Shown: positions 5,001-28,311 of the stretch, piece after piece
How positions within the stretch are numbered: the first letter of the stretch is position 1
How the letters are laid out: every line of letters begins with the position of its first letter
From: a virus
Virus record (IMG/VR): IMGVR_UViG_3300037502_001966
Location: 1 to 32,600 of that record
DNA length: 32,600 bases
Reading direction: 5' to 3' (one strand)
Program-made: the position numbers and the translations under genes
Notes under the pieces: generated by a model
Databases searched by the model: none
Told to the model about the DNA's origin: nothing
The model's input: only the letters and a program-made list of their open reading frames with translations

Positions 5001-5762
5001 TCACCTCCCTTGCTTTATAACCTTTGTTATATATGTTGATTGCTCTTTACGTAACGAATCTTCGTACTCCACAAGATCCTCGTGCCTGTATAAATGTTTA
5101 GCAGGATGATGAGTGTCCATATATATATTATACCCCGCGCATTGTGCTCGTATACAAAAGGCTCGGTCTTCCCACGTGCTCCACGACACGTTTGGGATGG
5201 AAGTGTACGTAACGCCGCTCTCAATAACGCTTCTGTGTATTAATATACAAGCCCCTGTATAACCTACCTTGTAAACAGATGGAGTGCGCCACTGATCCCA
5301 CTCTCCAGTATATTCATATCCATAGTGGTCGTACATCCATGCGTTCGGCATCTCGGGCTCTTGCGGTGTCCACCGTGTCCAAAATACCTCGGATATAATA
5401 TGCTTTCTATGATTAATTAATGTCACCAAAGTTTTAGGATGTAGAATTATATCGCTATCAACCAAAAAGAAATAGTCGTACTTTTCTGTCAATGCTTTAT
5501 GCAATAAATAGTTTTTCATGTTTACAACATCTTGTAAATTCTTAGCGCCCCAATGATGGGTAGAATCTTTGCGATAAGAAGTGTTGTTTGTATAATCTTC
5601 GTACTCGTGTGCCTGCAGTAGATCTTTCAACCCGCTAGAGTTATGCAGTATAAAGAATTTATCTACTTCGTATTCGTGTTCAAGAGAATTTAATGATGCC
5701 AAATAATGCTCAAAAACACGCACATCTTGATGCACTGGTGCTCCGATGAGTATACGGGTCAT
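5001..5762 (-). CDS. Glycosyltransferase-like protein, GT-A fold (second of pair)
   Basis: This 253-residue protein resembles GT-A (family 2-like) glycosyltransferases. It opens with MTRILIGAPVHQDVRVFEHY, the sugar-nucleotide binding strand and helix. A DXD-type motif (DSD, residues 102-104) follows the hydrophobic strand YDYFFLV, and would hold the divalent metal and nucleotide sugar. A later segment with GYTGACILIHRSV and WEDRAFCIRAQCAGY supplies the likely acceptor-side acidic residues (WED). Its ATG overlaps the stop of the first glycosyltransferase as ATGA. It is inserted between capsid and connector genes, so it probably modifies a virion protein or host surface glycan. Substrate cannot be told from sequence. 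Both enzymes appear full length. Confidence 0.75.
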   Translation of the reverse strand: MTRILIGAPVHQDVRVFEHYLASLNSLEHEYEVDKFFILHNSSGLKDLLQAHEYEDYTNNTSYRKDSTHHWGAKNLQDVVNMKNYLLHKALTEKYDYFFLVDSDIILHPKTLVTLINHRKHIISEVFWTRWTPQEPEMPNAWMYDHYGYEYTGEWDQWRTPSVYKVGYTGACILIHRSVIESGVTYTSIPNVSWSTWEDRAFCIRAQCAGYNIYMDTHHPAKHLYRHEDLVEYEDSLRKEQSTYITKVIKQGR

Positions 5763-6415
5763 GATGAATCGCCATCTTTTTTATTAGCATTATCAACTTC
5801 TTTTTTGTACTCTTCGTAAAAGTCTTGCTCGAATACTTCTTTATGCGCTAAATGACCAAACTGCAAGGTTGTGTCGCAAAACATTTTAACACCTGCGTTT
5901 TTTAATTTGTTACAGAAAGTCAGATCCTCCCCCACGTGAGGGAGTGGAAAAAAGTAAGGGGCGTTAATCTTCTCAAATGCTGATCGCTTTATTAATGCAC
6001 ACGCCAATCCTGCTCCTTCGATGGGCAACAGACCTTCGCCGTATCCCACTGGCGTTTCTAGGTAAGGAGGTTGATTGCTTCCTTCGTCAATATTTACCTT
6101 TGTATAAAAACAAGGCTGATAAGGCTTTACGCGCTTAAAAGCTTTTGCGGTCACGAATTCTTTATCGTGTTTAACTAAAAATTCAATGCTTTGCGGATGG
6201 AAGGTCATATCGCTGTCGATAAACATTAAGTACTCGCAATCGCTTTTTAAAAATTCGCTTGCTATATATTCTCTGGCATCATATACTAGCGAGCTTGATA
6301 TCATGGAGAATTCAAGTAATATATTCGTCCTGCGATTCGTCATGCGCATAAATGATTCAAAAACTTTAAATTCGATTGGTCGATGGATTGGCACTCCTAC
6401 CATGACTTTTGTCAT
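5759..6415 (-). CDS. Glycosyltransferase-like protein, GT-A fold (first of pair)
   Basis: This is a 218-residue GT-A-type glycosyltransferase. It begins MTKVMVGVPIHRPIEFKVFE, matching the opening of its downstream partner, so the two look like diverged paralogues. The metal-binding DSD is at residues 67-69 after EYLMFI. A GEDLTFCNKLKNAGVKMFCD stretch holds the likely catalytic acidic residue. The ATG at 6415 is preferred to an upstream GTG at 6424 because AGGGG lies eight bases before it. It follows its own promoter-like sequence and a long inverted repeat at 6452-6509. Likely a moron cassette for decorating the virion; the acceptor is unknown. Confidence 0.75.
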   Translation of the reverse strand: MTKVMVGVPIHRPIEFKVFESFMRMTNRRTNILLEFSMISSSLVYDAREYIASEFLKSDCEYLMFIDSDMTFHPQSIEFLVKHDKEFVTAKAFKRVKPYQPCFYTKVNIDEGSNQPPYLETPVGYGEGLLPIEGAGLACALIKRSAFEKINAPYFFPLPHVGEDLTFCNKLKNAGVKMFCDTTLQFGHLAHKEVFEQDFYEEYKKEVDNANKKDGDSS

Positions 6416-6442
6416 GAATAACACCCCTAATATGTTATTCCC

Positions 6443-15095: not shown

Positions 15096-15124
15096 ATCAT
15101 ATCATATCGGACAATGATTGTCAA
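15096..15124 (-). promoter_or_regulatory. Early promoter P3 with operator dyad
   Basis: TTGACA (15119-15124), a 17-base spacer, then TATGAT (15096-15101): a near-perfect sigma-A promoter for the SNF2 gene. The sequence GACAATCATTGTC, a perfect 13-base dyad with a one-base centre, overlaps the -35 and spacer. The -10 lies within tandem ATATG repeats. Confidence 0.8.
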
Positions 15125-15142: not shown

Positions 15143-15430
15143 TTGTTCCGTTTATGTTCCAGTCGTGTTCCAATGGCGTTCCAATAGTACAAGTGTTTAA
15201 ATTCCAGTATATATAAGGCTTTTCAAACTTAAGAATAGACGTGTTCCAGTTGTTCCAATAAATTCCCTATATAGCTGGAAATATATAATATATATTCTAT
15301 ACTATTTATACTATTCTACTGGAACAGTGGAACAGTATATATAATATATAGATAATATAAGGATTTTCAACATTTAACCTAGTGGAACATTCACTGGAAC
15401 AGTACTGGAACACTGGAACAGTAAAGGTGC
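15143..15430. repeat. Iteron element IR-L, inverted copy of 25005-25277
   Basis: This non-coding stretch holds 12 GTTCC/GGAAC boxes. GTTCC begins at 15145, 15156, 15167, 15178, 15243 and 15252; GGAAC at 15321, 15329, 15384, 15396, 15407 and 15415. The first four are exactly 11 bp apart, one helical turn. Several boxes extend to ACTG-GAA-CAGT, itself a dyad (for example 15318-15328). Between the arrays lie AT-rich runs and two copies of a TGAAAAGCCTTATAT-like block. The reverse complement aligns end to end with 25005-25277, with 72 identical bases (15206-15277 against 25153-25224). It lies between the primase terminator and the SNF2 promoter, so neither operon should read through it. Iterons plus AT-rich DNA suggest an origin or protein-binding array. 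Confidence 0.9.
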
Positions 15431-15436
15431 TGAAAC

Positions 15437-15462
15437 AAAAAAAGAGCCTTTTTTGGCTCTTT
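15437..15462 (-). terminator. Rho-independent terminator after the primase gene
   Basis: Eight-bp perfect stem AAAGAGCC / GGCTCTTT with an A6 loop and more T after it on the minus strand, 13 bases beyond the primase stop. It ends the main early transcript just before iteron element IR-L. The plus strand could also terminate weakly here. Confidence 0.88.
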
Positions 15463-15474
15463 CTCCCAGCGCAC

Positions 15475-17859
15475 TCACACACACGAAAAGCCGTTGACGT
15501 GCCCGTACTCTGCTCCGATGCGCTTTTTTGCGTTTTTCCATCCTAAAAATTTAAGACTATTACGTATTTCTATCGCCCGATCTTTCGGCGGCGTGATGCT
15601 TAACTCGCAAAAGCATTCGCGCCATATCTCTATTACCGAGATAAACTGTCGTTTGTGCAGGTGATCTGGCTGTGGCGACCTCATACGCCGTACCCGATCA
15701 TCCACTGACAGCATGTACCAGTGATCCGAGATCGGACGGCTCAAAAACTCCTTAATAACAGAAACGAGTTCAGGCTCGGCTGTATGTGCACTTTGTGTTT
15801 CGCGCGCCACCGTGTCAAGATCTTGCGGCAAGTACAGCGGCTCTCCCGCTCGATAGTAGCTTACAGCCTCTGCCCATATCTGACCCACGGTGTAGTCGTC
15901 GAGGTCAAAAACGCTTTTCGCGCTTTTTTCGCCGCAAGCAATTGGCAAAAAACGTCTATTGCCCGTAGGATCGGACAGAAACGAAAAGTCATTAGTGGTA
16001 GCAATAAAAATATTTTGCCTTGGGAAGTCCATTTCGCGCCTTGCGTACTTAGGTCTGTATCTGTCGACCTGTTTACTCAAAAACATTTTAACTACATTTA
16101 TCCTCGCGCGCTCTTTTGCACTCATTTCGGCAATCTCCACGATCCACGTACCGCGCAACGCCATCATTGCAGGCTCACCCTCAAGGCTGACCAGACTATC
16201 ACTATACCAAGATCTCCCAAGCTTGCGCAAAAAAGTAGACTTGCCAATGCCTTGCGCACCGAGCAGCGACACAACGGAGTCGTACTTGCACCCTGCGTCA
16301 TACGCCCTTGCAACCCCTGCGCATAGCATTTTACGCGTCACCGCTCTAGTATACGGAGTGTCGCACGCGCCGAGATAGTCGATCAACGCTGTATCAACTC
16401 TTTTTACGCCATCCCAGTTTAATGCCGATAAATAATCTTGTATTGGGTGATATTTTATTTCGCTGACTATTTTTTCCACCGCGATATCGAGCTTCTCCCG
16501 ACAATAAACACTATATATACGCTCTATATACCCCGCAAGAAGCTTATCGTCTGCGTCCGTCCATGATAGGCTGTGACGATCCCATGGCAACGACTTTTTG
16601 CCATAAATTGATTGATCAAATGAATTATATACAATATTGCCTTTCAAGTTCGGGTCATTTTTTAGTATTAAGTAAAAATTCTCAACACTCTTAACTATTG
16701 CGCCCGTTTTACCGTCGCGAGCTAGATCGTGTATCCAAGACAGGTCACTACTAGAGGTGTCCGATGTCGCCGCCTCTTCGGCGCGCATGACGAGCGGGTC
16801 AGACTCACATAGCAGTGCCATGCGTGCAGTACTGGCTCGATGATGTACAGGCGCGGTATAGTCATCATCGGATCCGTATAAGTGCGTGCGCACAAGGTCA
16901 TAAGCGTTGACCGCATGTCCTGTGCCTACAGGATCGCTAGCATGGTGGCTGTAACATAGATTCGCATCATTAAATACATACAACCCACCTGCGGTTGATC
17001 CATCAATGTACGTATACCGATCACCACTACTACCGTGCGGTGTATATATGTGCGGTAAAAACTTTTCTATCGCCTCATGAATTGTGTACGCTCTGCAAAA
17101 TTGACCTATTAAACCACTTTTGTTTTCAGGACCAACATTTTGTACGGCGGAAGTTTTTTCGCGTGTTTTTTGCTTGATAATATCGTTTGTTTTACCCTTT
17201 ACACCACTAGTCATCAATATGCTTTGATACTCGCGCAAATAATCATCGGCGCATAAAAAGTTGCCGTCATAAAATTTTACGAAATATTCCCCGTCAATGC
17301 TGCATGATGGAAAGTACATTAACCTTTCATACTCAAAAGTTTTTGTATCAAAAAATTCCGCACCTATTTTATGCGCTAAATATCTAGCGACGATATTATA
17401 CTCGCCCTTGCTCACGGGTCGGTCCACGGGCACGATGATACGGTATCGCCCACTAGATCGCATATGCTTGCGAGTCGTATGCACGATGGCACATACACCA
17501 TGCAGTCGCTCACTCACCAGACTCATGATATCCACGCCGCCTGCATGGTCAACGTCAAGTGTAACGATCTGCCGATCCACTACCGCTCCGACTTGCCTTA
17601 CGCCTCCTGTGCATACTCCCCCGACATATCCACCAACGTCTTTCAACTCATCCTGCTTTTCTTTTGGCATGGTTAAATATTCCGCTACAGTTTCAGGCGT
17701 ACGCGTTGGCTCTGAAAAACGTTTACAAAATCCTTCCCACGTGTCGCGTTCGTTGATCCAATAAGTTGTTCGCCGCGCAAAGTTTTTGCCGCTATGTGCG
17801 AAACTGATCAAGGCTTTTATGCCCTGATCAGTTCCTTTCGTGCTAATAATATTTTCCAT
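15475..17859 (-). CDS. Primase / VapE-type replicative helicase
   Basis: This 794-residue two-part replication protein has an N-terminal primase-polymerase-like domain, with catalytic acids in LDVDHAGG (Asp102, Asp104) and the strand RYRIIVPVDRPVS near 138-150. From about residue 450 comes the virulence-associated-E helicase domain (NWDGVKRVDT, SLLGAQGIGKST), with Walker A at 534-542. WIVEIAE at 572-578 is Walker B-like, ATTND at ~620-624 is sensor 1 and NRRF at 634-637 an Arg finger. It probably opens the origin, unwinds and primes DNA for the host polymerase, since no phage polymerase is seen. Start at the ATG at 17859 with GGAGG six bases upstream. The stop is followed by a strong terminator and iteron element IR-L. 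Confidence 0.92.
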   Translation of the reverse strand: MENIISTKGTDQGIKALISFAHSGKNFARRTTYWINERDTWEGFCKRFSEPTRTPETVAEYLTMPKEKQDELKDVGGYVGGVCTGGVRQVGAVVDRQIVTLDVDHAGGVDIMSLVSERLHGVCAIVHTTRKHMRSSGRYRIIVPVDRPVSKGEYNIVARYLAHKIGAEFFDTKTFEYERLMYFPSCSIDGEYFVKFYDGNFLCADDYLREYQSILMTSGVKGKTNDIIKQKTREKTSAVQNVGPENKSGLIGQFCRAYTIHEAIEKFLPHIYTPHGSSGDRYTYIDGSTAGGLYVFNDANLCYSHHASDPVGTGHAVNAYDLVRTHLYGSDDDYTAPVHHRASTARMALLCESDPLVMRAEEAATSDTSSSDLSWIHDLARDGKTGAIVKSVENFYLILKNDPNLKGNIVYNSFDQSIYGKKSLPWDRHSLSWTDADDKLLAGYIERIYSVYCREKLDIAVEKIVSEIKYHPIQDYLSALNWDGVKRVDTALIDYLGACDTPYTRAVTRKMLCAGVARAYDAGCKYDSVVSLLGAQGIGKSTFLRKLGRSWYSDSLVSLEGEPAMMALRGTWIVEIAEMSAKERARINVVKMFLSKQVDRYRPKYARREMDFPRQNIFIATTNDFSFLSDPTGNRRFLPIACGEKSAKSVFDLDDYTVGQIWAEAVSYYRAGEPLYLPQDLDTVARETQSAHTAEPELVSVIKEFLSRPISDHWYMLSVDDRVRRMRSPQPDHLHKRQFISVIEIWRECFCELSITPPKDRAIEIRNSLKFLGWKNAKKRIGAEYGHVNGFSCV

Positions 17860-18218: not shown

Positions 18219-18416
18219 TTAGCTATTTAGTTTGTTAAATTTTAGCGTTTCGTGTTGATCGATTGCGTTGCTCAAAAGATGAGTAATTGCTTGCGTTTTC
18301 GTTACGTAGTGCAAATCATCCTTAATGCTGTCAATCTTTTTTAACATATTCTCCGACACCACGACAGAGATCCTCGTGCGTGTCCGTCCGCTTTTTACAT
18401 GCTTAGGCTCATTCAT
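18219..18416 (-). CDS. Ribbon-helix-helix DNA-binding protein
   Basis: This is a 65-residue CopG/Arc-like protein. The N-terminal strand TRTRISVVVSENMLKKIDSI, a helix ending at about residue 36, then TKTQAITHLLSNAIDQH gives the ribbon-helix-helix order; such proteins bind DNA as dimers through the strand. The ATG at 18416 has GGAGG eight bases upstream. It is the only clear sequence-specific regulator encoded by the phage, so it is the leading candidate to bind the TGTC-containing early promoters or the GGAAC iterons. That link is an inference. Confidence 0.8.
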   Translation of the reverse strand: MNEPKHVKSGRTRTRISVVVSENMLKKIDSIKDDLHYVTKTQAITHLLSNAIDQHETLKFNKLNS

Positions 18417-18419
18417 TTT

Positions 18420-18818
18420 TTATTCCTCCAATTTATATATTGTTAGTTCTAGACGTGGATTTTTTTTGTCGATAAAAAAGTTATTCACCCTTGGTAAACA
18501 GTAGTAGTCATTACTATATACGCCGCCATCCTCTAGTACATCGCATAATAACTTTAAGCAATTATTCGTATCGCGAATCCTTTTATCCTTAAAATAAAAC
18601 GTCATTTCGACCACTGTTTTCGCCGACAATGTTTCCCAACCTTGAATATAAACCTCATTTATGATTTTTTCAGTGGCATCCTCACACCACGCACGAGCAG
18701 ACGGGCGCATGAATCGCCCATAACTTTTGGATCGCGTTATATAAGCTGAGTTAACACTTGGCGGTATTGACAGTGTTATATACAATGTTTTATTTTGCAT
18801 CGTCTTGAGCCACTGCAT
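18420..18818 (-). CDS. RusA-like Holliday junction resolvase
   Basis: Up to 132 residues. The N-terminal IPPSVNSAY and the RDTNNCLKLLCDVLEDGGVY segment are diagnostic of the RusA family, whose paired Asp residues bind Mg and cut branched DNA as a dimer. Here Asp residues occur in RDTNN and in LCDVLEDGG. It probably resolves recombination intermediates and branched replication products before packaging. Start could be the ATG at 18818, inside DUF3310, or the ATG at 18800; neither has a good Shine-Dalgarno, so coupling to the upstream gene is likely. It overlaps DUF3310 by up to 29 bases. Confidence 0.87.
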   Translation of the reverse strand: MQWLKTMQNKTLYITLSIPPSVNSAYITRSKSYGRFMRPSARAWCEDATEKIINEVYIQGWETLSAKTVVEMTFYFKDKRIRDTNNCLKLLCDVLEDGGVYSNDYYCLPRVNNFFIDKKNPRLELTIYKLEE

Positions 18819-19002
18819 CGCGGTACATGCCTAAGTAATCAATCGCTTTATTTATATCATCAATCTTCGATCCCTTATGCTCGTGACGGCATAAATATTT
18901 TATGACGTTTCCTATTAAAAAGCCTTTGTACTGCTCTCTGGACAATTTAGCCTTAATAATATTTAGTGTTTCTAATCCGCCGACTTTATAGTACTCGCTC
19001 AT
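18790..19002 (-). CDS. DUF3310 protein (nucleotide-metabolism-associated)
   Basis: This 70-residue protein contains YKGFLIGNVIKYLCRHEHKG, then KAIDYLGMY, the DUF3310 signature found across phages, often beside nucleotide metabolism genes. The start is placed at the ATG at 19002, which overlaps the RNR stop as ATGA. A longer frame from 19029 is possible but less natural, and GGAGG upstream is shared with the RNR tail. Placement directly after the ribonucleotide reductase supports a nucleotide-related role; the exact activity is not established. Confidence 0.82.
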   Translation of the reverse strand: MSEYYKVGGLETLNIIKAKLSREQYKGFLIGNVIKYLCRHEHKGSKIDDINKAIDYLGMYRDAVAQDDAK

Positions 19003-21143
19003 CGTATTGGACACGCTCCTCCCTCGCATGATTCGTTGCCTACGTCAATAATTCCTTTGTCGTACTTTTGCAATAGTTTTGCATCAAATTTTTTCATTGA
19101 CGATTTCAATAATTCATATTCTTCTTTGCTACATTCTTCATACGGCGCGAGCGGGTACGTACCGCCATCATCTGCCAAAAATGATATGCCGATGTAATCA
19201 TTCCACATATTAAGTAATTGATTAGGCAAGTCAACCCATTCACTTGGTTTAACATGTATCGTGTTGGATGTGTTATGATCTGTGTATTTCTCTTGAAACA
19301 TCTTATATATATATAATTGTTCTTTTGCATCAACATTCTTTTTATGCCGTTGCGCGGGCGAATTTACGGGGAAGTCGATCACAAGAGTTGTCGCAGACTC
19401 CATCTCTTGCCCAACCTCTGGGTGCACGCGCCACCCCAAATCAAGAGCCATGCGCGCCAGCGGATCGTGCGAATTGATGCGTATGCGCCGTATAAAATAT
19501 TCGCTATGCGAAAAGTGGATACCGCTAGACACCCCTCCTGCCACTATAGACAGTGTTCCTTCTGGCTTGACTGTCGTAACAAGCAAGGGTCTGTTAACAC
19601 CAAGAAATGTCGCATAGTCACTTGCTGTGTCGTTTGCAGTATTTCTTAGCATCAATAATATATCTTGCAACTCATGCCAGTTGTATCCTGCGTCCTGCAC
19701 ACCTGTGATACTACACCCTAGCAATCTATCGCGTTGTTGAATTTTATCCCAATGGGGGAGTTCCAGTTGCGCGAGCGTCATTCGCAGCCCTGCTCGTGCG
19801 GACAAACTTTGCGCGAGTTTTAACTCTTCCAAGTTTTCCCAATCGGCTGATAAATTTATTGTGGTTAAGTTACAAACGCCGTAGCTGTCTAGCAATATTT
19901 CTGCGCACGGATTAAGACCTTTGACATTAGGTCTGCGCTTTTCTGCCGCTGCTAGGTTTATAAACCCCGGCTCTCCCTCTAGTTTCATGATCAAACATAA
20001 TAACTCCATCACATTTTCGCTCGGTTTATCATTAAATGCAATAGAGTTATTACTCATGCGCCGATGATGCAAGTGCGTTTTGCACATTGGATCAACGAGT
20101 AATGCGTCTACGACCTTGTGGTCAACGCCTCTGATCGTGTTCATTTTATCTTTGATTTTCTTTAGCAAACTTAACCCTTCATCGCCCCAGATACCGTTGA
20201 TTCCGAATTTTGCAAAAATGCTTTCCCAGTCGTCCGAGTCGCACAAAAATATTTCTGCAGTCCGCCTAACCCCTCCGCACACTACGTTGTTGCCGATGAG
20301 ATTGCCGATGTCTAGAACATGTACAGGTCTTACTTGCCCATCAATCGGCTTAATAGTCGTTGTATCTAACTCTCCACGCAACATACTTTCAATGCCTTTA
20401 AACATCTGCATTAATGGCTCGTGCCCGCTCGCTGTTCCGCCGAAGGTCAGCAAGCGCTCCCCTTTTGGGCGAATATTGTCGTAAATGATATTAAGTGTTT
20501 TTACTTTTCCCTCTATTAAAATGTTGATAAAGCTGTTGAATGATTGTACCCATCCTTCTTTACTATCGCCGACAATTATTGTTGCAAAATTTTCACTTTG
20601 CTCTGTCGAACCTTCGACTCCGTTTTCGCCGATAAATTTATAATCTTTGTGTATAATATTTTCGGGCAAAAACAATTTATGCAACTTTGACGCGTTTTGT
20701 TTAGTACATTTAAATCCTACGCCAGTTCCAATTAGCAATAAATAAAACAAGTCACCTAAATCTTTCCAACTCTTTACGTCAACAAATGCACAATTGAAGT
20801 TTGACATAGGGTACTTTGCGCCTGCTTCAGTACCTCCTATCCATAGTGTTCTGCCGCTTAAAAATTGTTTGAGGTTAAACATGTTGTCGAATAATAATTC
20901 CGCCTCCTTCTTTAAATCGTTAAGACTTTCTGCTTTCTCGATACCTTTGTTGCTAAAATGTCTATATTCTAAACTAATGTTATACTCAACGGCTCTCGCG
21001 CATGTCTCCTTCCACGTTTCACGGCGACCCAAATTACTTAACCATCTTGAATATGTGCGGTAGTAAACAAACTCGCCAATCTCGGTCATATGCTCGGGAG
21101 CATCATTGTATTTGCTTAAAAATTCATCTGATAAAAATTTCAT
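18999..21143 (-). CDS. nrdJ: Adenosylcobalamin-dependent ribonucleoside-triphosphate reductase (class II)
   Basis: This 714-residue monomeric class II RNR makes dNTPs from NTPs using B12, so the host must supply or import cobalamin. Residues match the Lactobacillus leichmannii enzyme: Cys118 in NFNCAF and Cys424 in YGVCNLTTIN are the reducing pair, and Cys413 in LNPCAEI is the radical site. Cys706 and Cys711 in the C-terminal ESCEGGACP shuttle electrons from thioredoxin, with the same five-residue spacing. It also has VKPEGTLSIVAGGVSSGIHF near the C-terminal barrel. The start at 21143 has GAGGAG ten bases upstream. It needs no oxygen and no second subunit. All catalytic Cys residues are present. 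Confidence 0.95.
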   Translation of the reverse strand: MKFLSDEFLSKYNDAPEHMTEIGEFVYYRTYSRWLSNLGRRETWKETCARAVEYNISLEYRHFSNKGIEKAESLNDLKKEAELLFDNMFNLKQFLSGRTLWIGGTEAGAKYPMSNFNCAFVDVKSWKDLGDLFYLLLIGTGVGFKCTKQNASKLHKLFLPENIIHKDYKFIGENGVEGSTEQSENFATIIVGDSKEGWVQSFNSFINILIEGKVKTLNIIYDNIRPKGERLLTFGGTASGHEPLMQMFKGIESMLRGELDTTTIKPIDGQVRPVHVLDIGNLIGNNVVCGGVRRTAEIFLCDSDDWESIFAKFGINGIWGDEGLSLLKKIKDKMNTIRGVDHKVVDALLVDPMCKTHLHHRRMSNNSIAFNDKPSENVMELLCLIMKLEGEPGFINLAAAEKRRPNVKGLNPCAEILLDSYGVCNLTTINLSADWENLEELKLAQSLSARAGLRMTLAQLELPHWDKIQQRDRLLGCSITGVQDAGYNWHELQDILLMLRNTANDTASDYATFLGVNRPLLVTTVKPEGTLSIVAGGVSSGIHFSHSEYFIRRIRINSHDPLARMALDLGWRVHPEVGQEMESATTLVIDFPVNSPAQRHKKNVDAKEQLYIYKMFQEKYTDHNTSNTIHVKPSEWVDLPNQLLNMWNDYIGISFLADDGGTYPLAPYEECSKEEYELLKSSMKKFDAKLLQKYDKGIIDVGNESCEGGACPIR

Positions 21144-21167
21144 TGGTAATTATCTCCTCTTTTTTTA

Positions 21168-21863
21168 TTACTCCCACATACTTTTAGTTTTGCCGTAATC
21201 GCCGATAATCTTATCAATAATGCGCGTTCCTTCCTCCGTTTTTTTGAGTTTGCGATATGCGTGCATCCAATCGGTTGCGGTATGCCCAAAAAATTCTTCC
21301 GCAACACTCCACAATTCGGAGTCAAACTCTTTGCACAAGTTAAACATTTCAACAACCGCAGCCCTTGTCGCCCCTTGCGCCCCCTTGCTCCACAACCGTT
21401 GCGGGAATACTGCTTGAATTAATGTCGCAAAATTAAACTGTAGCACGAATTCGTTCATATGCGCGCCACATGGCATCGCAGATCGCGCAACTTGCGGAGA
21501 CTCTGTTTCTGCCAATGAACGGTATAATTTATAAGCGGCATTCACTGCATCATGCACCGTGTCAGGGTATTTCATCTTGTCAAGCGGTAGAGAGTACCCG
21601 TCACTCACTTTTGCGCGATTTCCGCACGCCACACGCATGTTACGAGTGGTATATGTCGTTAAATGGTCGTACACTTCCTTTGTAACCCCATTAAACATAA
21701 ACTCCACAAACTCTCCGCGAAAGATCTCTAGTGTATGCCCCATGCGCAATATGCTTAGTGGTCTGCGAACATTGTCGTGGTCTTTTTTGCCTAAATAAAT
21801 CGCCGCATTGCGCGCTAAATTTAAACGCTTTGGATCTGTGTATCGCACAATATCAATCATCAT
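21168..21863 (-). CDS. thyX: ThyX-like flavin-dependent thymidylate synthase, divergent
   Basis: About 231 residues. Order and spacing match ThyX: a GHTLEIFRGEFVEFMF strand-helix, then TTRNMRVACGNRAKVSDGY where the RHR-x-x-S-x-N-E-x-S-x-R-Y motif should be. The C-terminal SPQVARSAMPCGAHMNEFVL and GAQGATRAAVVEM parts match ThyX PREVARIVLP-like and AQWEIRE-like regions. Only part of the ThyX motif survives, so binding of flavin or dUMP may be altered or the alignment may shift. If active it would make dTMP from dUMP, fitting the adjacent RNR. Start is taken at the ATG at 21863, since an upstream ATG at 21875 sits on the Shine-Dalgarno. It overlaps the preceding gene by 11 bases. Confidence 0.7.
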   Translation of the reverse strand: MMIDIVRYTDPKRLNLARNAAIYLGKKDHDNVRRPLSILRMGHTLEIFRGEFVEFMFNGVTKEVYDHLTTYTTRNMRVACGNRAKVSDGYSLPLDKMKYPDTVHDAVNAAYKLYRSLAETESPQVARSAMPCGAHMNEFVLQFNFATLIQAVFPQRLWSKGAQGATRAAVVEMFNLCKEFDSELWSVAEEFFGHTATDWMHAYRKLKKTEEGTRIIDKIIGDYGKTKSMWE

Positions 21864-22326
21864 AATCAATTCCATTTCCTTTTAACTTTCTTTGCGTTTC
21901 GCCTATGCTTTTAATAACTTGCATCATCAAGTTTTTTTCTGCTTCACTCACTTTTTTAGGGTCGAACGTTGCGATCTCGTCCGAGAAATCTTCTGACAAC
22001 TCGCACGTTTCGCCGATCAAATTGTTTATATCAACAATCATTTTTTGAATCTCTTCGTTTTTTTGCATGATGGCATCTGCGAGGTCAATCGCCGATCTCC
22101 TAGGGTATCGAGCTATAATGTCTTTTTGATCGACAACTATTTCTTCGTTAGCCAAGGAATCTGCAATAATCTTGTTCGCGTCATGAATAAATACCTTATC
22201 TTTTACAAGTTTCGCAAACTCTATGATCTCGTTTTGATCCATGACTTTCTCGCGCCCGTCAGGCAACGACACGCAACCGAGTTTTATTCTATGGTTATAA
22301 CTAACTCTATACATTTTTTCTTTCAT
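21853..22326 (-). CDS. Helical early protein, unknown function
   Basis: About 157 residues from the ATG at 22326, with GGAG nine bases upstream. An upstream TTG at 22350 would place the N-terminus in the Shine-Dalgarno and is unlikely. It is charged and mostly helical, with segments DQNEIIEFAKLVKDKVFIHD and AIDLADAIMQKNEEIQKMI, and resembles no family I know. It lies between the ssDNA-binding-like protein and ThyX-like gene and directly after a C15/G15 tract, so its expression may depend on that leader. A replication accessory role is only a contextual guess. Confidence 0.7.
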   Translation of the reverse strand: MKEKMYRVSYNHRIKLGCVSLPDGREKVMDQNEIIEFAKLVKDKVFIHDANKIIADSLANEEIVVDQKDIIARYPRRSAIDLADAIMQKNEEIQKMIVDINNLIGETCELSEDFSDEIATFDPKKVSEAEKNLMMQVIKSIGETQRKLKGNGIDYDD

Positions 22327-22397: not shown

Positions 22398-22946
22398 TTA
22401 CAAAAAATCGTCTTCGTCAATTGGTTTTGGTTTTGGCTTGGCGATATCCCCGAAGTCGCTCAACACGCTTGATCCGCCTCCGTCAAGTCGCTCTCCATCT
22501 TGTAATTTTATCAGTCCGTTCAATCCGCACGCAACCCCGTGCCGAATCTTATTATACGAGTACCCATAAAGATTAACACTTACAGCCCCATAGCATCCAG
22601 AGTATATCACGTCTGGGTTTGTAATGTGCTCGTGATCTGCATCAACCACAAGAGGCTTTTTTTTGCTTGATGCGTTGAAAAAGTAATTACCTGCATAAAC
22701 TGGATCGCCCTCACGCTCGGCATCACCATCGCGCAAACAACTCTGAAAACCGTTCGGCTTTTTACCACCGAATACATCGTCGATCTCTTTTTTGATAGCG
22801 GCGCGCATTTTTTCAATGTTTTCGGTATCAGTTTTCGGAAATAAAATTGACACGCTGTACTTAGGCTCTGACCCATTAAATCCTTTAGGCTCTAAAACAG
22901 TTACGTAGCTAAAACGAACATTTTTTAAAACTACTTTTGTCGACAT
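22398..22946 (-). CDS. DUF2815 protein, ssDNA-binding-like
   Basis: This 182-residue protein starts KVVLKNVRFSYVTVLEPKGF, with a later KYSVSILFPKTDTENIEKM and a middle YAGNYFFNASSKKKPLVVD, the DUF2815 pattern. DUF2815 proteins have an OB-like fold related to phage ssDNA-binding proteins (T7 gp2.5 type). The Pro/Lys-rich linker and acidic C-terminal tail ending DEDDFL are characteristic of ssDNA-binding proteins, where the tail recruits partners. The start at 22946 has AAGGGG 11 bases upstream, a weak site. It follows DUF2800, the usual pairing in Clostridia and Bacillota phages. Confidence 0.85.
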   Translation of the reverse strand: MSTKVVLKNVRFSYVTVLEPKGFNGSEPKYSVSILFPKTDTENIEKMRAAIKKEIDDVFGGKKPNGFQSCLRDGDAEREGDPVYAGNYFFNASSKKKPLVVDADHEHITNPDVIYSGCYGAVSVNLYGYSYNKIRHGVACGLNGLIKLQDGERLDGGGSSVLSDFGDIAKPKPKPIDEDDFL

Positions 22947-23159: not shown

Positions 23160-23188
23160 ATCATATCATATCCGACAATGTGTGTCAA
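23160..23188 (-). promoter_or_regulatory. Early promoter P2 with operator
   Basis: TTGACA (23183-23188), 17 bases, TATGAT (23160-23165). Within it GACA-N5-TGTC forms a dyad over the -35 and spacer, and GATATGATATGAT holds the -10. It sits after the DUF2800 stop and drives the micro-ORF and DUF2815 onward. Confidence 0.8.
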
Positions 23189-23208: not shown

Positions 23209-24360
23209 TCACCCCTGTATTTCCCATGGTTCGAGTGCGTCGCGTTTATCGCTTGTTCGCGCGATAGTAGGCTTGCCGTCTGACTTTTTTATATACTTGC
23301 CTAATACTTTAGAGAATGTATCTTTTCCGATGCTCCTTTCTAATTCCGCAGGAGTTTTGAGAGTTAAAATATCAACGTCAATACCTTCTTCCTGTAGTGC
23401 TGTGTTTATCGTTGTTATGTCGGCGATAAAGGATCTTGACCCTCTTCCCTGTACGAGTTTATACCCATCGATTGCCGTTCCTTTTTTCATCGTTTTCAAC
23501 GCAAAGTCCTTAACTTCTTCGCACCAACTTTTTATATCGTCAACCACTTCGAGCAGTTTTGCAATCTCTTTTACGTCCATTTTTTCGACCTCCACGTCTT
23601 TATAGTTATCAAATGTTTCTACTGCTAATTGTTTGTATAATGGACAAATTGGTTTAGCAGTACAGTACTTGCAGTGATCGCCTTTTGCGCAATCAGACGA
23701 CGATGGTGTTTTGCCTATCTGAGCCATAATGAGTAGATCGTAGCACCGTTCCGCCCGTGGAGCGAGATCGTTTTTGGCAAAGCGCAGTAGATCGCTTGGT
23801 GTTGTGATCCATGTCCTATACGACTCAAGTCGCGGCTGTGCGATATGCAGTGTCACGGTATCGATATCAACAAGGCCGATCATATATCCTAAAGCATCTA
23901 AAACACCCAAAGCGTATATCATTAATTGCACGTTGTTTTCTACCTCAACTGGTATATAACCAGTTTTATAGTCAACTACATGTAATTCTTTAGACTTTCG
24001 ATCATACATCCAGTAATCTACTGTGCCAGTGCATCCACGTATCCATCTGCCGAGCGTGACTACATCCTCTACTCCGTAACGTACCTCGTTTTTCGGTTGT
24101 AAAGATGCGATATAATTCGCGTACTTAACCGCTAGTAATTCCGACTCGCTTTTTTGTTCAACCTTATAATCTTTAATTGTGAGAATCTTTTCTGCGACCT
24201 CGTGCGACTCTGTGCCTTGTAGCGCTTGCGGCGATGCGGTCTCTGATACACCAGATGATCGCACCATCGACTCCAATGCCGCGCTTGCAGGGCATGCCAT
24301 CCACCTGTGCGCCTTAGATGCCCCGAGTGCGCTGTGCTGACGGCTTTTATGGTCAATCAT
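23209..24360 (-). CDS. DUF2800 protein, PD-(D/E)XK nuclease-like with Fe-S cysteines
   Basis: This 383-residue protein starts with the DUF2800 hallmark ALGASKAHRWMACPASAAL. It then has ELHVVDYKTGY, the Asp...x-Lys-type nuclease core of the RecB/Cas4 fold. Three closely spaced Cys in HCKYCTAKPICPLYK, with another in SSDCAKGD, resemble the Cas4-type iron-sulfur site. Such proteins accompany DUF2815 in phage replication modules and are thought to be exonuclease or recombination factors. Start at the ATG at 24360, eight bases after AAGGGGGT and directly after the upstream stop. The C-terminal ~90 residues (after DGYKLVQGRGSRSF) contain helices of unknown use. Activity is inferred from fold only. 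Confidence 0.87.
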   Translation of the reverse strand: MIDHKSRQHSALGASKAHRWMACPASAALESMVRSSGVSETASPQALQGTESHEVAEKILTIKDYKVEQKSESELLAVKYANYIASLQPKNEVRYGVEDVVTLGRWIRGCTGTVDYWMYDRKSKELHVVDYKTGYIPVEVENNVQLMIYALGVLDALGYMIGLVDIDTVTLHIAQPRLESYRTWITTPSDLLRFAKNDLAPRAERCYDLLIMAQIGKTPSSSDCAKGDHCKYCTAKPICPLYKQLAVETFDNYKDVEVEKMDVKEIAKLLEVVDDIKSWCEEVKDFALKTMKKGTAIDGYKLVQGRGSRSFIADITTINTALQEEGIDVDILTLKTPAELERSIGKDTFSKVLGKYIKKSDGKPTIARTSDKRDALEPWEIQG

Positions 24361-24958: not shown

Positions 24959-24987
24959 ATCATATCATATCGGACAATGCGTGTCAA
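24959..24987 (-). promoter_or_regulatory. Early promoter P1 with operator
   Basis: TTGACA (24982-24987), 17 bases, TATGAT (24959-24964). Its spacer carries GACA-N5-TGTC and a GATATGATATGAT core as in P2 and P3. It opens the early operon next to iteron element IR-R. Confidence 0.8.
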
Positions 24988-25004
24988 CAACTTATTTCAA
25001 CTTT

Positions 25005-25277
25005 TTTTATGTTCCAGTGTTCCAGTCGTGTTCCAGTTGGTGTTCCACTAGGTTTAAGATTGAAAAGCCTTATATTATCTATATATTATATATACTGTTC
25101 CAGTGTTCCAGTAGAATAGTATAAATAGTATAGATATATTATTATAATATTTCAGCTATATAGGGAATTTATTGGAACAACTGGAACACGTCTATTCTTA
25201 AGTTTGAAAAGCCTTATATATACTAAAGTTTAAACACTTGTGCTATTGGAACGTCATTGGAACACGACTGGAACAAA
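25005..25277. repeat. Iteron element IR-R, inverted copy of 15143-15430
   Basis: Non-coding, with 11 boxes: GTTCC begins at 25011, 25019, 25030, 25042, 25097 and 25105, and GGAAC at 25174, 25183, 25248, 25259 and 25270. Box spacings (8, 11, 12; 8; 9; 11, 11) mirror those of IR-L read in reverse. Two TTGAAAAGCCTTATAT-like blocks sit in direct orientation, and between the central boxes is an AT-rich core of TATA-rich DNA. The differences are scattered substitutions and small indels, so the two copies are old or under shared constraint. The element lies between the lysis terminator and promoter P1, away from readthrough. The 24930-25316 gap contains only this element, P1 and the terminator. Confidence 0.9.
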
Positions 25278-25309
25278 AAAAGCCCACCAACGATAATCGT
25301 TAGCAGGCT
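25275..25309 (-). terminator. Rho-independent terminator after the amidase (late operon end)
   Basis: 13-bp stem on the minus strand (arms 25281-25293 and 25297-25309) with a TTA loop followed by seven T. Three of its pairs are G-U, and these become mismatches on the plus strand, so it is strong only in the direction of the late transcript. It ends the lysis module just before IR-R. Confidence 0.9.
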
Positions 25310-25316
25310 TTTTTTA

Positions 25317-27126: not shown

Positions 27127-28311
27127 TTAAATCGTCACCGATCCTTTTTTGTATTTTATATAACCCGTAGTTGGTGTTACGAAATTTAATGTAGTTTGCG
27201 ATCCGACAGTTGTTTCTGTTGTCGCTGGCGAGAATTGATATTTCGATCCAACTGGAATTGTGATCGGCGGCGAAAGCAAAGCATATGCGTTGACAACGGA
27301 GCTTGATACACCTGAAGAATTTAACCCACCACCAAAAAGCGCATAATTCCCTACGGTCGTTGCGCTTAATTGCCTTATTGCCAAACTAAGTTCAGCAGGT
27401 GTTGTACGCACTAAACTGGTATCATATGCATCGACAGTTGATCTATATGCCCCATCAAACCCACCGCCAAAAAGAGCATAGTTTCCAACGCTTGTAGCGG
27501 TTAAAATATATCGCGCAACGCTTAACGCCGTAGGTGTTGTACGTACTAAACTTGTATCGTAAGCATCAACAACCGCACTGTTAACACTACCACTACCAAA
27601 CCCGCCACCAAAAAGGGCATAATTTCCGACTTTTGTTGCTGCAAAACGACTTCGCGCAACGCTTAACGCCGTAGGTGTTGTACGCACTAAACTGGTGTCG
27701 TACGCATCAACTGCTGCGCTTGCACTTCCTGTATCGCCGCCACCAAAAAGGGCATAATTCCCAACGCTTGTGGCGGCTAGAAATTCACGCGCAACGCTTA
27801 ACGCCGTAGGTGTTGTACGAACTAAACTGGTGTCGTAAGCATCGACTACTGCACTTACACTGCCTGTAGTACCGCCGCCAAAAAGAGCATAATTCCCAAC
27901 GTTTGTCGCTGCTAAGTATTGCCGCCCTACACTTAACGCCGTAGGTGTTGTACGCACTAAACTAGTATCATAGGCATCGACTACTGCACTGTAAACACCA
28001 CCACCAAACCCGCCGCCAAAAAGGGCATAGTTCCCAACCTTCGCTGCTGATAACCCAAACCTCGCAACACTTAACGCCGTAGGTGTTGTACGTACTAAAC
28101 TTGTGTCGTACGCATCGACCACAGCGCTGCTAACACCACTAGACAAACCGCCGCCAAAAAGGGCGTAATTTCCAACGCTTGTGGCAGCATTTCTTTCTTG
28201 TGAAACGCTTAGTGCTGTTGGATTTGGCGATGTCCTTACTAGCGTGCCAGTGGAAAGAGTGTAGTCAACTCTCGTCAATCCACCGCCGATATTTGTTCTC
28301 CCGCTACCCAT
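27127..28311 (-). CDS. Kelch-like seven-repeat beta-propeller, probable receptor-binding protein
   Basis: This 394-residue protein is built of seven VGNYALFGGG units, 45-47 residues apart. Each is followed by VDAYDTSLVRTTPTALSVAR, the Kelch-type pattern of a Gly-Gly turn and repeated Tyr/Asp/Val. The N-terminal TLSTGTLVRTSPNPTALSV supplies an extra strand set that can close the ring with the last unit, so one seven-bladed propeller is likely. The C-terminal region (ITIPVGSKYQFSP onward) looks like a small beta domain for attachment. ATG at 28311 with GGAGG six bases upstream. It lies among tail-tip genes, so it is expected to bind a surface sugar or protein. The loops between GGG and VDAYD vary most. 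Confidence 0.85.
   Translation of the reverse strand: MGSGRTNIGGGLTRVDYTLSTGTLVRTSPNPTALSVSQERNAATSVGNYALFGGGLSSGVSSAVVDAYDTSLVRTTPTALSVARFGLSAAKVGNYALFGGGFGGGVYSAVVDAYDTSLVRTTPTALSVGRQYLAATNVGNYALFGGGTTGSVSAVVDAYDTSLVRTTPTALSVAREFLAATSVGNYALFGGGDTGSASAAVDAYDTSLVRTTPTALSVARSRFAATKVGNYALFGGGFGSGSVNSAVVDAYDTSLVRTTPTALSVARYILTATSVGNYALFGGGFDGAYRSTVDAYDTSLVRTTPAELSLAIRQLSATTVGNYALFGGGLNSSGVSSSVVNAYALLSPPITIPVGSKYQFSPATTETTVGSQTTLNFVTPTTGYIKYKKGSVTI
27341..28172 (-). repeat. Coding tandem repeats of the propeller, 135-141 bp x 7
   Basis: The codons for VGNYALFGGG recur starting (plus-strand core gcataa or close variants) at 27341, 27476, 27617, 27752, 27887, 28025 and 28163, spacings 135, 141, 135, 135, 138 and 138. 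Middle copies are almost identical in DNA (the VRTTPTALSV part especially), which would allow recombination to change blade number or shuffle loops. Size differences fall in multiples of three, all in frame. Confidence 0.9.

Follow-up and report, generated by a model that had tools for sequence, protein, structure and literature searches.

An inverted pair of iteron elements in a phage encoding a VapE-family primase-helicase, with a predicted replication origin directly 3' of vapE

The P4 alpha protein is a primase-helicase initiator that binds repeats in two separate cis regions, ori1 and crr. The alpha protein and an ori site termed ccr have also been mentioned in PMC6092414. In SaPIs and PICIs, the origin is located 3' of rep and is composed of two iteron sets flanking AT-rich DNA, and the origin iterons are recognised by the C-terminal domain of the SaPI Rep protein (PMC6092414, PMC7581432); this layout has been called "shared by ... 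no other known bacterial replicon" (PMC6092414). Bacteriophage SPP1 carries two iteron/AT-rich origins, oriL and oriR, which lie approximately 13 kb apart and are bound by one initiator, and it has been proposed that the theta-to-sigma switch of SPP1 occurs when initiator-bound oriR blocks a replication fork and an exonuclease, an annealing protein and a resolvase act (PMC6316719).

The DNA analysed here, referred to as the window, is the 32,600-nt IMG/VR record IMGVR_UViG_3300037502_001966. A repeat search and blastn revealed an identical 127-bp repeat at both ends of the record, which is consistent with the 32.47-kb circle as which the window was treated. All recognised genes of the window are carried on the minus strand, and portal, capsid, protease and TerL genes are present, as in a phage gene set. 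In contrast to SaPIs and PICIs, which are satellites lacking capsid genes, the window has its own, indicating a phage that uses this replicon type rather than a PICI. No DNA similarity between the window and named phages or plasmids was found.

A repeat search identified two inverted arms of 288 nt (15151-15438 and 24992-25279) that are 89% complementary without gaps and separated by 9553 nt, and blastn aligned them at 92% over 274 nt. The initial annotation had described a full-length inverted match between a left and a right element, with 72 identical bases and mirrored box spacings, and all three observations were reproduced: the 72 bases (15206-15277 and 25153-25224) match exactly and are the longest exact stretch shared by the arms, and the right spacings (8, 11, 12, 55, 8, 68, 9, 65, 11 and 11) read as the left series (11, 11, 65, 9, 68, 8, 55, 12, 11 and 8) reversed. 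A chance origin of the pair is excluded, and mis-assembly is unlikely because the longest exact inverted stretch is shorter than the 127-bp overlap. The pair had also been said to bracket the whole early module, and this needs correction, since the SNF2 helicase gene falls outside it (Table 1).

Table 1. Coordinates of the two elements and of neighbouring features in the window
Feature	Position	Strand	Basis or remark
SNF2/DEAD helicase, outside bracketed segment	13712..15061	-	Pfam
Sigma70 promoter TTGACA-N17-TATGAT, by left element	15096..15124	-	drives SNF2 helicase gene
Left element, predicted VapE origin	15143..15421	.	12 GTTCC/GGAAC boxes, 4-2 / AT-rich centre / 2-4
Terminator-like hairpin and T run after vapE, by left element	15433..15460	-	sequence
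VapE-family primase-helicase, predicted initiator	15475..17859	-	Pfam PF05272, E 2e-73
RusA Holliday-junction resolvase	18420..18818	-	
Gp2.5-like ssDNA-binding/annealing protein	22398..22946	-	
Third promoter copy, without element	23160..23188	-	sequence
Exonuclease (phrog_69)	23209..24360	-	
Sigma70 promoter, by right element	24959..24987	-	drives early operon
Right element, inverted second copy	25005..25277	.	11 boxes and AT-rich centre
Terminator-like hairpin and T run after endolysin gene, by right element	25276..25316	-	sequence

Each element taken alone is a dyad, in which inward-facing box sets (4-2 and 2-4) surround an AT-rich centre (15258-15318, 82% AT, on the left; 25113-25172, 83% AT, on the right); inverting an element therefore changes the box layout little. 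The box consensus is GTTCCA(G/A)T in both elements, and 22 of the 28 occurrences of GTTCCA in the circle lie within them. The left element has the two iteron sets around AT-rich DNA by which a SaPI/PICI-type origin is recognised, and it lies directly 3' of vapE, whose end is at 15475. VapE is homologous to PDB 7pds, with a profile match (E 1e-130) that spans positions 350-782 and thus comprises the helicase and the C-terminal domain; this entry, titled 'Similar to D. nodosus vapE', is presumably SaPI1 Rep. The window thus resembles the SaPI/PICI system in its homologous helicase, in an origin-like element directly 3' of the initiator gene and in iteron sets on either side of AT-rich DNA, but differs in its iteron sequence and in the second, inverted copy approximately 10 kb away. 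The iterons of P4 differ as well, and P4 has one origin and an accessory region.

The position of the left element was compared with 80 VapE loci from IMG/VR that were picked by protein and not by box, and an array was called when at least five copies of one 7-mer, counted de novo, were present within 400 bp 3' of vapE. Arrays were found in 60 of the 80 loci before redundancy removal, and in 35 of 58 non-redundant loci versus 22 of 2900 control windows. Among named phages, the intergenic space 3' of vapE is likewise filled by an array in Enterococcus phiFL4A, Acutalibacter Fontainebleau, Paenibacillus Rae2Bee1, Corynebacterium StAB and Staphylococcus 2638A, and the StAB box (GGAACA) is the same as that of the window. 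The SaPI/PICI rep-ori layout is therefore widespread in phages: an arrangement held to be peculiar to PICIs (PMC6092414) is found again 3' of vapE in the majority of VapE phages and prophages sampled, which provides a concrete candidate origin for a large, little-studied group, the phages with VapE primase-helicases. When the box doublet of the window was scanned across IMG/VR, unrelated contigs were recovered, and VapE, DUF5906 or primase domains were present in most of the proteins tested beside the box clusters. A genome scan with the dyad pattern gave two matches, both of which were unrelated and were set aside, and a literature search by box sequence returned no relevant match.

The iterons vary across the family (GGAAACA, GTTTACA, GGATACA, TGGAACA and others, mostly of the GnnnACA kind), and adjacent iterons are mostly 8-9 or 12-13 bp apart, compared with 8, 9, 11 and 12 bp in the window. 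The iteron also varies with the C-terminal domain of VapE: with helicase identity held constant, iteron similarity tracks C-terminal similarity (partial r 0.18, Mantel p 0.0055, n=46), and the converse test, helicase given C-terminal, gave 0.07 (n=46). The relationship between iteron and C-terminal domain is weak, and phylogeny is a partial confounder. From sequence comparison, the C-terminal domain (approximately residues 694-794) is predicted to bind the GTTCCAGT boxes. Seven VapE loci (L141, L144, L149, L156, L159, L162 and L163) have no array 3' of vapE and an array approximately 4-8 kb away, which suggests that VapE can act on distant origins. Another record (G022/L124) combines a GGATACA array at the 3' end of vapE with an array of a different iteron, GTCAACA (nine copies), approximately 10 kb upstream. 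Eleven CGGAACA boxes lie within an annotated ORF of Bacteroides phage BC679P5 (L250, near 21211), away from vapE, and this ORF may be an origin that was wrongly annotated as a gene.

The left element was compared with its counterpart in one close relative (L034), whose contig stops before the region of the right copy; a search for a relative spanning the right copy found none. The left elements of the two are 98.9% identical, while the flanking DNA is 88% identical, and the right element is 90.9% identical to both. If rates were equal, these values place the duplication before the split from the relative, and the right copy therefore appears to be an old one. Among aligned columns, 0 of 75 box columns vary versus 25 of 190 spacer columns (p 2.5e-4), which is the pattern of conserved boxes and drifting spacers for which the initial annotation had proposed to look. 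Since no box column varies while the spacers do, the boxes of the right copy are probably maintained by selection; AT-rich spacers that drift faster than GC-containing boxes may exaggerate this conservation.

The reading that we favour, with a probability of about 0.62, is that VapE binds both elements, that the left element is the origin, and that the right element is a further site for the initiator, acting as a second origin or as a fork block like that of SPP1. The left copy is read as the origin because of its standard place 3' of vapE and its SaPI-type anatomy, and the directly observed components of the model are this anatomy, the family-wide position and the conservation. The C-terminal domain of VapE would bind the iterons of both elements; at the left origin, the AT-rich stretch flanked by inward-facing box sets would melt, helicase rings would load and forks would leave. 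The right copy, at the late/early junction approximately 10 kb away, would be an inverted duplicate that has stayed functional as a further site for the initiator, its orientation being of little expected consequence given the dyad layout, and would act most likely as a second origin or, by analogy with SPP1, as a site where bound initiator arrests forks. A stalled fork could then, with the phage exonuclease, annealing protein and RusA, shift replication from theta to concatemer formation. As in SPP1, the window has two iteron and AT-rich elements, 9.6 kb apart and so somewhat closer than those of SPP1, and genes for an exonuclease, an annealing protein and a resolvase in its early region. However, SPP1 uses gp38, the loader gp39 and the DnaB-type gp40, whereas the window has VapE and its elements are inverted; no match to a gp38/gp39/gp40-type initiator set was found among the window ORFs scanned. 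Twin origins, as proposed in the initial annotation, are thus the best supported of the options that it listed: the left element has the position and anatomy of the VapE/SaPI type and the right one keeps every box, while what the right copy does is deduced from these features. Such a twin copy opens the long-standing question of the purpose of a second phage origin to direct test in a setting where a single protein is the initiator. The GC skew of 4-fold sites, which is confounded by gene class, does not step at the right element; it does step at the left element, but in the direction contrary to that of a simple bidirectional origin located there.

The rarity of a second copy was counted against this model. 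In approximately 44 other VapE records, whole or near-whole and many possibly incomplete, the same iteron formed another complete array in three (G019/L107, G034/L147 and G039/L158), 13-24 kb from the vapE array and in direct orientation in all three; one lies in a lysogeny region, one beside a probable lysis gene and one among structural genes. Second clusters in two other records were rejected: the one in G066 is a repetitive tract resembling coding sequence, and the one in G002 consists of dispersed boxes that show no similarity to the main array of that record. The layout had been put forward as one not recognised from a described phage; this stands for the inverted orientation, which was seen only in the window among the VapE records checked, but not for the twin arrangement itself, given the two iteron origins of SPP1 (PMC6316719) and the three records above.

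The right copy may instead be regulatory, with the left element still the origin, a reading that we hold to be possible but distinctly less probable, in which bound VapE would repress or activate the early promoter, or the boxes would titrate or handcuff the initiator, for copy-number or early-late control. The vapE-containing operon is driven by the early promoter, approximately 25 bp upstream of which the right boxes stop, and the left element adjoins a promoter of the same type, which is conserved in the close relative (as TTGAAA). At both elements the promoter lies approximately 20-25 bp beyond the boxes and in the same orientation; as the elements are inverted relative to their promoters, proximity rather than orientation is suggested to matter. 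However, an operator need not keep a full dyad with an 83% AT centre, and boxes are absent from the third near-identical promoter. All three promoters are near-identical to one another, and a GACA-N5-TGTC-like palindrome overlaps the -35 element of each; this palindrome is a possible operator for a small repressor-like protein encoded at 18219-18416.

A duplicated origin that is neutral or in decay would fit the rarity of twin arrays, the 9% divergence of the right copy and its 11 boxes versus 13 in the close relative, but is unlikely in view of the 0 changed box columns against 25 changed spacer columns and of a duplication that, at equal rates, is apparently older than the split from that relative. 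We also consider it doubtful that the inverted orientation makes the pair a matched set, in which the elements would start or stop forks in opposite directions around the circle, and recombination-dependent replication between the arms would flip the self-contained early block into two genome isomers and drive concatemers.

Recombination between the arms that inverts the 9.6-kb early segment, as isomers or as a switch, is very unlikely to be what the pair is for, even though there is a perfect inverted stretch of 72 bp, the segment has its own promoter and terminator and so could work in either orientation, and SPP1invmir is viable with an inverted replication segment (PMC6316719). The arms are not homogenised, and the site-specific inversion suggested earlier finds no backing: no integrase or invertase was recognised with Pfam among the ORFs scanned, several small ones of which have no match, and gene order and orientation are unchanged in the close relative. 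A centromere or packaging landmark, also suggested earlier, is least credible and unsupported, for although a 65-aa protein encoded in the window has a match to a family of phage transcriptional repressors, and short direct repeats can be targets of small DNA-binding proteins like this one, no ParA was recognised among the scanned ORFs (several small ones lack a family match), the arrays accompany VapE across records, and nothing links them to terminase.

No DNA polymerase was recognised in the window, and several of the VapE phages examined carry one just before vapE. A B12-type ribonucleotide reductase gene followed by a ThyX-like gene occupies 18999-21875, and two adjoining glycosyltransferase-like genes (Anp1/GT2) lie at 5001-6424 in the head-gene block. 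The ORF at 27127-28311 contains seven tandem repeats of 135-141 nt (27317-28226) with the motif VGNYALFGGG, and perhaps encodes a receptor-binding or beta-propeller-like tail protein.
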